Shown: positions 9,952 through 34,213 of the stretch, piece by piece
Layout of the letters: the number at the start of each line of letters is the position of its first letter
Numbering within the stretch: position 1 is the stretch's first letter
NCBI GenBank assembly: GCA_027081355.1
Contig: JALWKP010000147.1
Coordinates: 1 to 35,723, forward strand
Direction of reading: 5' to 3'
Source of the DNA: Campylobacteraceae bacterium
GTDB lineage: Bacteria > Campylobacterota > Campylobacteria > Campylobacterales > Sulfurovaceae
Length of the DNA: 35,723 nt
Made by a program: the position numbers and the translations under genes
Notes under the pieces: generated by a model
Told to the model about the DNA's origin: nothing
Databases searched by the model: none
Seen by the model: the letters and a program-made list of their open reading frames with translations, nothing else

Positions 9952-10725
9952 ATGCCAATTTTAAATGATATTAAAATAAATGTTGATCCTATTAAAGAGT
10001 GGCCAATGTATGCAATAAGAAAAACTCATTCTTATATATTGAGAGAATTTTTTATGTCATCTAATTATAAAATTTGTATAGAAAACTCTCAAGATTATTA
10101 TGAAAAGAATAAATTTATTTTAAATGAAATAAAAAAGACAAATAAATCTTTAGGTTTAGATGAAGAAATTTTTTTGGCTAATGCTAAAGAAATATCAGAT
10201 TGGACATTAGAAATGGAGAAAGAAGATTATAATGATTTGTATATACATTCATTCATAGGTATGTGGTCGGCATTAGAAACGGGTATAGAAAATATTTTTA
10301 AAGATTTTGTAAAAAATGATATTATTAGTGCGAAGAACATAATTACAAAATTCAAATTGGGTAAATATAATATAAATAATTGGCCATGGAATGATTCCAC
10401 TTGTTATGAAATTGCTTCTAATTTAGAAAAAAGAGTTAGGCAACTTAATAGCAATAAAAATTTAGGAGTTAATTACTATGAAAGAATTAAAATTGTTTTT
10501 TCTTGGTTCGAGTTGGAATACAATTTAAATAATGAAGATATTTATTATTTAAATGAAGCAAATAGGGTAAGAAATATAATACTACATCGATATGGAAATA
10601 TTGAAGAAAAAGATATATCGGATTTCCCGAGATTGAGACAATATAAAAATAGATTAATTCATATTAATGAAGAACTTTTTAATAGATATTATAGTGCAAT
10701 TATGAATATGTTAATTGAAGTTTAG
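9952..10725 (+). CDS. HEPN-type putative ribonuclease, no recognised partner
   Basis: 257-residue soluble, mostly helical protein that I recognise only by pattern. Near the C-terminus lies RVRNIILHRYGNI, containing R207-N-I-I-L-H212, the Rx4-6H motif of HEPN ribonucleases. An upstream helix, WSALETGIENIFKDFV (about 105-120), is typical of the first helices of large HEPN proteins of the RiboL-PSP/MAE_28990 kind. Composition is clearly lower in GC than flanking mfd (many ATA, TTA, AAT, AGA), suggesting acquisition. The start has AAGGA at 9940-9944; TATAAT at 9933-9938 is close by, so either promoter or ribosome site may be fortuitous. No MNT nucleotidyltransferase lies next to it; it faces vapC tail to tail. 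RNase activity is inference. Confidence 0.55.
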   Translation: MPILNDIKINVDPIKEWPMYAIRKTHSYILREFFMSSNYKICIENSQDYYEKNKFILNEIKKTNKSLGLDEEIFLANAKEISDWTLEMEKEDYNDLYIHSFIGMWSALETGIENIFKDFVKNDIISAKNIITKFKLGKYNINNWPWNDSTCYEIASNLEKRVRQLNSNKNLGVNYYERIKIVFSWFELEYNLNNEDIYYLNEANRVRNIILHRYGNIEEKDISDFPRLRQYKNRLIHINEELFNRYYSAIMNMLIEV

Positions 10726-10794
10726 AATAGTATAGTTGAAAGAATATCAAGAGATAAATTAATTGAAAATTGGGATTAAATTTATTCTCCACTT

Positions 10795-10885
10795 GCTCCC
10801 AAATTGCATTTGGGAGTGTATAGGGCTTATCTGTCAAATAAAGCTTGTAATTGGTGGGCAATTGCTCCCAATATAATTTGAGAGC
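10795..10885. repeat. Twin-hairpin element A (intact copy, 91 bp)
   Basis: Two palindromes 69 bp apart in phase: CTCCCAAAT-TGC-ATTTGGGAG at 10796-10816 and GCTCCCAA-TATAA-TTTGAGAGC at 10864-10885. The 47 bp between them are also conserved in a second copy at 33955-34213 (about 85 percent identity by eye, no gaps once an insertion there is removed). A third, partial head GCTCGCTCCCAAATT lies at 35597-35611. No reading frame. It resembles paired REP-type elements, located in the tail-to-tail gap after the HEPN gene. Confidence 0.8.
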
Positions 10886-10913
10886 GAGTAAAAATTACAT
10901 ATCAAAAATAACC

Positions 10914-10998
10914 GTAGGGTCGATTTATCGACTATAAATAATAATGTAATTGTTTCAATAATTTATCGTTTACCAATTGGTCGGTAAACCGACCCTAC
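10914..10998. repeat. Twin-hairpin element B (85 bp)
   Basis: Begins GTAGGGTCGATTTATCGAC (10914-10932; palindrome GTCGAT-TT-ATCGAC) and ends GGTCGGTAAACCGACCCTAC (10979-10998; palindrome GGTCGGT-AA-ACCGACC). The two ends are also inverted copies of each other (GTAGGGTCG... / ...CGACCCTAC), so the element can fold as two small hairpins or one long one. The middle is AT-rich and non-coding. Unrelated in sequence to element A but the same architecture. Confidence 0.8.
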
Positions 10999-11044
10999 AT
11001 TTTTCAATATGATGAATATTCCTAATAAATTATATTCTCTCTTA

Positions 11045-11121
11045 TTTCATATCTCCTGATATGGAACATAAACCTTACTGCAATTTATGACTGTATGTAT
11101 TCCGCATCAGGAGATACGGAA
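11045..11121. repeat. Twin-hairpin element C (77 bp)
   Basis: Left end has palindrome CATATC-TCCT-GATATG (11048-11063) followed by GAAC. Right end TTCCGCATCAGGAGATACGGAA (11100-11121) is an imperfect palindrome and, reversed, matches the left end at about 18 of 22 positions. A third sequence family with the paired inverted design. From here to the vapC stop, 11122-11185, I see no gene or clear terminator. Confidence 0.75.
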
Positions 11122-11185
11122 CGAGGAAAAAATCTCAAATTGTGCAGGAACAGCAAATAAATTTGCCGTAAATCGAGTAGCTTTC

Positions 11186-11551
11186 CTATTTTTTTACCAA
11201 TTCACCTATTTCAACAGCTTTAACAAATCCAGAATTTAACAGCTGTTTATCTGATGTTACTAAAATTGCACTGTTGCATAAGGAGCTAGCTACTATTATG
11301 CTGTCTGGCAGTTTGATTTTGGAGTTTTTTCTTATTTCGATGGTTTTATCTTTAATACAATTGGTAATGTTGACAGTTGTGAATTTAGATAAAACCTCTT
11401 TTAAAACTTGCTCATCTTGCGATGATAGTTTGCTGTAAGAAAGTAGTTCGATTTCTGTAATAATGGATATTAGATATTGAGCTTTTGGAAGAGAGAGTTC
11501 TTGATTTATAGCATAGATAATGCTGTTTGTGTCTAGCAGATATTTTCGCAT
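11186..11551 (-). CDS. vapC: VapC-type PIN-domain toxin
   Basis: 121-residue PIN-domain endoribonuclease, the usual size. Acidic residues of the metal-binding pocket are visible: Asp7 in YLLDTNSII, Glu33 in IITEIELL, Asp83 in KLPDSIIVAS and Asp101 in LVTSDKQLL. It is the second gene of a pair: its ATG overlaps the stop codon of the antitoxin gene by one base (TAATG), a common toxin-antitoxin layout. VapC toxins cut tRNA or rRNA in known cases; the target here is unknown. High confidence in family, moderate in activity. Confidence 0.88.
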   Translation of the reverse strand: MRKYLLDTNSIIYAINQELSLPKAQYLISIITEIELLSYSKLSSQDEQVLKEVLSKFTTVNITNCIKDKTIEIRKNSKIKLPDSIIVASSLCNSAILVTSDKQLLNSGFVKAVEIGELVKK

Positions 11552-16979: not shown

Positions 16980-17081
16980 GCAGGGGCAGACCTGTGTGCC
17001 TGCCCGTGCAAGTGTAAAAGTGTGGAAGCTTATAACGGCAAATAGTTACTCTCGCGGGGCGACACATCGATTGCCCTCTAC
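16980..17081. repeat. Twin-hairpin element D (about 102 bp) between folP and XRE gene
   Basis: Left end has GGGCAG (16984-16989) pairing with CTGCCC (17000-17005) around a 10-base loop. Right end GGGGCGACACATCGATTGCCC (17056-17076) followed by TCTAC is an inverted, diverged copy of the left end. A related half copy, GTAGGGGCAGACCTATGTG and following bases, lies at 31552-31577. Two GATTTGG heptamers precede it at 16963-16976. May act as a bidirectional terminator, though there is no T-run. Confidence 0.7.
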
Positions 17082-31443: not shown

Positions 31444-31577
31444 GTGAATAGTGAAAAGTGAAGAGTTTTGGTTGCGTTATTTTATAACACTTTTGTTTAG
31501 CGGATTAAGAAAAAACAGATTATATGTTTTTCAGTATTCCGTATTCGGTATGTAGGGGCAGACCTATGTGTTTGCCC
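31444..31577. repeat. Heptamer repeats and half of element D between tolA and arsR
   Basis: GTGAATA, GTGAAAA, GTGAAGA at 31444-31464 and GTATTCC, GTATTCG, GTATGTA at 31534-31554 are two separate period-7 blocks. GTATG runs into GTAGGGGCAGACC and following bases (31552-31577), a near copy (about 22 of 26) of the left half of element D at 16980. A small dyad GTTAT-TTT-ATAAC lies near 31475-31487 but has no T-run, so I do not call a terminator. No gene is seen between 31439 and 31643. Confidence 0.7.
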
Positions 31578-33948: not shown

Positions 33949-33954
33949 CTGCTC

Positions 33955-34213
33955 GCTCCCAAATTACATTTGAGAGTGTATAGGGCTTTTCTATCAAATC
34001 AAGTTTATAATGAGACCACTGCACAACAGTAAGCCCAAATTACGGCACTATAAAATATCATAAATCAAAAAAATTCCTCTGGGCTTAGCTTTGGTTAGGC
34101 TTTCGAGTAATTTTATTTAATTTCTGATACTTTCTATTACCATACTTTGGAACTAACTATTGTGCAGTGGTCTCATAATTAGTCGGTAAATGCTCCCAAA
34201 TACAATTTTGGAT
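33955..34213. repeat. Twin-hairpin element A' (second copy), interrupted
   Basis: Starts with CTCCCAAAT-TAC-ATTTGAGAG at 33956-33976 and ends with GCTCCCAAATACAATTTTGG and following bases at 34192-34213. Without the 168 bp of the inserted MITE plus one target copy it is 91 bp and aligns to element A (10795-10885) without gaps, the two GCTCCC starts being 69 bp apart in both. Differences are mostly single substitutions (about 11 in 76). It replaces the rest of arsB. From 34214 to 34263 I see no feature. Confidence 0.85.
34011..34175. mobile_element. 165-bp MITE-like insertion, IS5-family-like ends
   Basis: Terminal inverted repeats TGAGACCACTGCACAA (34011-34026 and, inverted, 34160-34175) are perfect for 16 bp and continue weakly. 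Flanking TAA at 34008-34010 and 34176-34178 is a 3-bp target duplication, proved by comparison with the empty element A at 10795-10885. There is no open frame long enough for a transposase, so it is non-autonomous. A 3-bp TNA duplication and GAGACC-type ends suggest mobilisation by an IS5-family transposase encoded elsewhere; the family assignment is inference. Confidence 0.85.

Follow-up and report, generated by a model that had tools for sequence, protein, structure and literature searches.

We observed that the gap between two convergent genes in the window (the whole stretch of 35,723 nucleotides analyzed here, from a member of the Sulfurovaceae) holds three side-by-side inverted palindrome twins, A, B and C, which are very probably REPINs, i.e., miniature, non-autonomous, inverted pairs of REPs that are moved by RAYT (TnpA_REP) single-strand nucleases. 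Element A (10,792–10,888; 97 bp) has its left arm at 10,792–10,816 on the plus strand and its right arm at 10,865–10,888 on the minus strand; element B (10,914–10,998; 85 bp) has its arms at 10,914–10,933 (+) and 10,979–10,998 (−); and element C (11,041–11,125; 85 bp) has its arms at 11,041–11,066 (+) and 11,100–11,125 (−). With these coordinates, which include the 4-base tags, the spacers are 25 bp between A and B and 42 bp between B and C. An earlier note on this DNA had described the three stacked twins between a gene that it called HEPN and vapC; all of them are present at that place, and the sizes that it gave for the elements and spacers are right to within the tags.

Each of the stacked twins consists of two inverted REPs and a spacer and folds into hairpins, which is what makes a REPIN. 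The folding is not due to chance, with RNA fold z-scores of −3.5 for twin A, −6.9 for B and −6.2 for C, and all six arms also fold independently. The canonical tetranucleotide GT[AG]G stands at the foot of B, whereas A and C carry CTCG as their common outer tag, which has decayed to CTTG in the left arm of A and to CTTA in the left arm of C. We file B as a GTAG-class REPIN and the other two elements as a CTCG variant. The upstream gene (9952–10,725, plus strand) has its stop codon facing the stack; it gave zero Pfam matches and no convincing NCBIfam match, which leaves the HEPN label unconfirmed. On the other side, the 3′ end of a vapC-like PIN-domain gene (11,186–11,551, minus strand; Pfam PF01850, 34.7 bits against a cut-off of 23.6) faces the stack. 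REPs are reported to sit commonly between convergent genes (PMC3733652).

When the gap was used as a query against its own genome (an assembly of 1.86 Mb in 181 contigs, 95.6% complete), many partial copies were found. A pattern search allowing up to 3 mismatches returned 20 arms of B, 4 of A and 4 of C, and the same patterns read backwards gave 0 matches; the recurrence on which the earlier note had staked its interpretation is thus borne out. These numbers, as well as the 15 arms that fit the strict CTCG pattern given below, stay under the 100 copies per genome that REPs are described as usually exceeding (PMC2817692). At up to 2 mismatches, B arms number 18 in the own genome, 44 and 59 in two congeners (G004 and G005) and 2 each in three others (G003, G008 and G009), and they are absent from 6 of the 12 genus genomes. 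Twins with their tags outward hold 10 of the 18 own B arms and 76 of the 127 B arms in the genus, where they are 61–99 bp long; four arms of G003 and G008 lay outside the pairing script and are taken as unpaired within the 127. The palindromes are therefore not mostly unpaired, the outcome that the earlier note had named as fatal to its idea. All five B twins in the own genome join unlike arms; however, a heterodimer rule for B is unsupported, since unlike arms occur in 20 of 38 twins (mostly GATTTATC with GGTTTACC; p = 0.27 overall against shuffled arms).

A second copy of element A lies within the window at 33,952–34,212 (plus strand), as two BLAST pieces, one of 60 bp at 86.7% and one of 33 bp at 81.8%, that are separated by an insert at about 34,012–34,174. 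The insert is ~163 bp long, with 27-bp terminal inverted repeats (GAGACCACTGCACAA..) and ATAAT flanking it on both sides, and its ends also adjoin element copies on contigs C73 (L032) and C91 (L033).

The own genome carries two genes named REP-associated tyrosine transposase (NCBIfam NF047646, cut-off 80 bits), namely RAYT-1 of clade R1 (L025:2087–2554, 154.4 bits) and RAYT-2 of clade R2 (L028:985–1518, 106.7 bits). The HUH motif together with a score above the curated cut-off places them among the RAYTs, and the sole PDB match of either is the E. coli TnpA_REP (4er8; E = 1.7e-23 for R1 and 4.3e-4 for R2). A complete B twin directly follows the stop codon of RAYT-1, and more B arms lie on both sides of the gene, which supports the guess of a REP-associated tyrosine transposase made in the earlier note from the design of the elements. 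RAYT-2 is flanked by a third palindrome, CCCAAAGCT..AGCTTTGGG, with the tag CTCG. Furthermore, the congener G004 has an R2 RAYT (L064) with the palindrome, tag and tail of A (CTCG-CTCCCAAATTGCATTTGGGAG-TGTATA) on both sides, and palindromes of the C type flank the R2 RAYTs L067 (G022) and L093 (G005). A RAYT flanked by the same REP was thus found for B in the own genome, for A in G004 and for C in G022 and G005, while zero intact RAYTs with A-type or C-type palindromes were found in the own assembly at its 95.6% completeness.

At L028:2879–3250, a second, chimeric RAYT-2 fragment consists of the C-terminal half of the gene behind unrelated sequence, with more palindromes, and at L064:831–2013 in G004, there are two tandem R2 RAYT copies, the first of them broken by stops, with A-type REPs between and around them. 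G004 has 44 B arms, yet its best RAYT match is of the R2 class, with no R1 above the cut-off among the matches listed; these arms are either an orphan population or reflect an assembly gap. Consequently, an abundance of B is not always paired with the presence of a RAYT.

RAYTs above the cut-off occur in 26 of 99 relatives, all of them within the window's own family. We counted all 256 tetranucleotides 5′ of the hairpins that flank a sample of 36 R1-like and 19 R2-like loci. GTAG tops the flanks of R1, where it was present at 32 of 36 loci (on both flanks at 24; the median tetranucleotide scored 3), and it was found at 0 of 19 R2 loci. CTCG leads the flanks of R2, tied with the overlapping TCGT, with 17 of 19 loci (both flanks at 8; median 1) compared with 3 of 36 R1 loci. 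The expected tag was missing in this strict scan at 4 of 36 R1 loci and 2 of 19 R2 loci; in looser listings, L047, L108 and L067 have the expected tag and L065 has TTCG.

In the tree, R1 and R2 fall on opposite sides of one branch with a support of 100/100, and the palindrome type tracks the RAYT subclade, as L067 and L093 with C-type palindromes are sisters (98/90) and L028 and L092 with the CCCAAAGCT type are sisters (99/89). The R1 proteins have both HUH and WQ in 36 of 36 cases. The R2 proteins, with a median open frame of 181 codons, all have NH[LIV]H (19/19); their third motif is YIH[QN]NP in 13 of 19, YIHHNP in 4, YIHENP in 1 and none in 1, and at the WQ position there is WQ in 7 of 19, WE in 5 and no regex match in 7. 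B is of the R1 kind, and A and C are of the R2 kind. The description of the three elements as unrelated in sequence accordingly holds for B against A or C; A and C, on the other hand, are not unrelated, because they have the CTCG tag in common, and palindromes of both the A and the C type lie on the flanks of R2 RAYTs in relatives. The idea of one common mechanism behind three unrelated sequences gives way to two RAYT clades with two tag classes, A and C belonging to the same class.

The CTCG class has further regularities. The strict pattern (CTCGYYCC, 8–18 bases, GGRRYGYATA) gave 48 matches in 7 of the 12 genus genomes and 0 in the control; with the foot and tail base left free, the pattern is present in 80 of 120 family genomes, with a few control matches. 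From 24 of these 80 genomes, 150 matches were listed, and related copies among them are not independent. Among these listed matches, 146 of 150 have palindromic bodies, a C at the stem foot goes with the tail GTATA in 24 of 26 (24 of 24 if the C is paired with G), and a T at the foot goes with the tail GCATA in 114 of 123. The coupling of foot and tail in the C/T table has a Fisher p of 3e-19, or 1.6e-11 for distinct sequences, with kinship ignored in both values. There were 12 inverted CTCG pairs in total among the matches listed. All nine pairs of 79–85 bp join one GCATA end with one GTATA end, and the three longer pairs (113, 154 and 185 bp) are GCATA/GCATA. The pairs that flank RAYTs are, by eye, mostly of the same type on both sides. 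The tails of A (TGTATAG and CAATTG) and C (TACATAC and CATAAAC), also read by eye, do not show the mixed-end rule cleanly, and therefore the rule rests on the other CTCG twins.

We considered CTCG as a mark of the whole RAYT subclass and rejected it. One relative from the gammaproteobacterium Salinivibrio (55.7% identical) has CTCG..GCATA palindromes, whereas the motif is absent at four Bacteroidota relatives (29 to 33% identical), and CTCG thus marks a subclade. A literature search did not find the tag described, and the main texts of PMC3733652, PMC6006769 and PMC2817692 contain no instance of "CTCG", although Table S1 of PMC6006769 may hold the motif. What is new here is a CTCG tag that goes with a separate RAYT clade, the coupling of the stem foot to the third tail base, and the 79–85 bp CTCG twins of unlike ends. 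We tentatively propose, as a reading that falls somewhat short of probable, that CTCG REPs form a third tag superfamily with a dedicated RAYT clade, that the RAYT reads a joint code made up of the CTCG tag, the stem foot base and the third tail base, and that a mobile REPIN needs one end of each type and would thereby have a defined left and right, as in IS200/IS605. RAYTs are domesticated single-strand transposases, and how they select their substrate is understood for GTAG tags. A second RAYT clade with a distinct tag and with foot–tail covariation offers a ready experiment on how cutting sites are chosen.

How might such twins move? From their anatomy, their recurrence and the association of RAYTs with tags, we infer the mobility, the cutting and the route of stacking as follows. 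By analogy with the E. coli TnpA_REP and IS200/IS605, the arms would fold on a single strand, for example the lagging-strand template, and the RAYT would bind the folded REP, with the 5′ tag, GTAG in B and CTCG in the other two elements, guiding a nearby cut. The twin could then be excised or copied and joined elsewhere. For the E. coli TnpA_REP, the GTAG tetranucleotide is reported to be required for cutting and to act as a guide (PMC8266576); by the same logic, R1 should read GTAG and R2 should read CTCG on folded single strands, and the foot–tail coupling would be compatible with a guide touching both. B would be served by the R1 RAYT of its own genome. Since the closest matching RAYTs of A and C sit in relatives, these two elements may be orphans here, or they may be cross-mobilized by the R2 RAYT of this genome, whose tag is the same but whose palindrome is different. 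The low copy number of A and C, the lack of a matching RAYT in the own assembly, the many B arms of G004 beside a best match of the R2 class, the absence of an empty site from the congener stretches compared and the few RAYT loci that lack the expected tag count against the REPIN account.

Could the twins instead be selected RNA elements, acting as bidirectional terminators or 3′-end protectors of the convergent genes, with mobility only as the route of arrival? They sit between two convergent stop codons and fold strongly as RNA, and the right palindrome of B, together with the CTACATTTTT that follows it, scores as terminator-like, a type of site found twice in 1 kb compared with 0.4 expected. 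However, five of the six arms have no T-run behind them, copies of these elements lie on the flanks of transposase genes and close to other genes, and an RNA hairpin needs no conservation of a tag outside its stems. Furthermore, no Rfam family reaches its gathering score within the window, and the five weak matches in the gap are to microRNA and ribozyme models far below their cut-offs. We consider a selected RNA function unlikely. The short length, AT-rich middle and inverted ends would also suit ordinary MITEs belonging to a DDE insertion sequence bounded by terminal inverted repeats, but here each end is a palindrome in its own right and carries a fixed outer tag, the genes that have the same ends are HUH Y1 RAYTs, and the MITE-like insert inside the second copy of A has quite different ends, all of which makes an origin as MITEs highly improbable.

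The REPIN account leaves room for two histories of the stack, three independent arrivals or one BIME-like composite that moves as a unit. The order A-B-C is common to the window, contig C120 (C half, B half, A) and contig C60 (A arm, B twin, C twin), and contig C99 has the order A-B with an A–B junction identical to that in C120. On the other hand, the orientations of B and C vary among the stacks, the window and C60 differ in their junctions and spacers, and contigs C43, C58, C9 and C177 carry B without A or C. A single composite is thus rather unlikely. The odds of the clustering by chance are 1e-6 to 1e-3 for 3 of 4 C arms near B and 3e-4 to 0.03 for 2 of 4 A arms near B, values that are indicative only, because the share of the genome taken to lie close to a B copy (0.7 to 7%) was a guess. 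Mosaics of REPs and hybrid dimers have been described before (PMC3733652; PMC2817692). The stack probably formed as REPINs arrived repeatedly in a single convergent gap that tolerates them, together with the spread of ready-made composites.

What remains of the 3′ end of an R1 RAYT gene, now decayed, lies in the B–C spacer (10,999–11,041, minus strand). Positions 11,000–11,041 are identical to the 3′ end of RAYT-1 at 31 of 42 bases in the same register; the TAG within the GTAG tag serves as the stop codon of RAYT-1. In a scan of 71,362 window positions on both strands, with the true site included, only one scored as high. Because this decayed RAYT tail lies beside B, B arrived with a RAYT copy, was left by it or replaced it. 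For the corresponding site in congeners, mfd served as the landmark, with matches in 11 of the 12 genus genomes at E ≤ 0.001 (a weak paralogue only in G008 and G001). No empty site was found among 10 stretches from 8 congeners, in which HEPN, vapC, its partner, hemW and nudH are missing beyond mfd and several contigs end shortly after mfd.

How do these elements compare with known systems? B resembles the GTAG REPs and REPINs with their RAYTs (Bertels & Rainey 2011, PMC3116915; Nunvar 2010, PMC2817692) in its GTAG tag and short perfect palindrome, in its inverted twins (61–99 bp in the genus) and leftover single arms, and in the inverted copies that flank a RAYT. It differs in its low copy number (18 in the own genome, 44 and 59 in two congeners) and in its phylum, as the RAYTs that qualified in the 2010 screen are given as Gammaproteobacteria only (PMC2817692). 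The present case extends the RAYT/REPIN partnership in detail to Campylobacterota.

The R2 proteins compare best with TnpA_Y1 subclass 2.6, or RAYT group 5, described as having "atypical secondary structures", tags other than GT[AG]G and a mostly Bacteroidetes distribution (Quentin 2018, PMC6006769), and as marked by NH[LIV]H, WQ, YIH[QN]NP and a length of about 179 residues. R2 fits the motifs in large part (NH[LIV]H in 19 of 19, YIH[QN]NP in 13 of 19, WQ in 7 of 19) and has a tag that is not GT[AG]G and copies elsewhere in the genome. However, subclass 2.6 is described with weaker structures and mostly from Bacteroidetes (PMC6006769), whereas R2 comes from Campylobacterota and one gammaproteobacterium and has strong palindromes, the CTCG tag and the GCATA/GTATA tail. 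The CTCG class may be an example of what lies behind the "atypical structures" described for one RAYT subclass.

The statement in the earlier note that no such set had been described in Campylobacterota was too strong. GTAG and CGTC REPs are reported to coexist in Sulfurovum sp. NBC37-1 (Di Nocera 2013, PMC3733652), and REPs in this phylum are therefore not new. Like the CTCG class, the CGTC REPs have a non-GTAG tag that coexists with GTAG REPs, form twins and form heterodimers. Unlike it, they are described with AT at the stem foot and a CCA tail, and with the transposase absent (PMC3733652), whereas CTCG REPs carry a YG[CT]ATA tail and go with a RAYT clade of their own. A and C carry the CTCG tag, have no CCA tail and have the same ends around RAYTs, which sets them apart from CGTC REPs.

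Further palindromes were seen in passing. On contig C108 (L044, about 240–272), a palindrome of the form CGTC-ATTCCC..GGGAAT-CCA resembles the CGTC REP type, and thus the genome may hold three tag classes. Within the window, a twin-like pair at 16,980–17,081 combines GCAGGGGCAGACCTGTGTGCCTGCCC with an inverted, CTAC-ended GGGGCGACACATCGATTGCCC, one at either end, and looks like a further REPIN of the GTAG class; a related single GTAGGGGCAGACC palindrome lies near 31,550.
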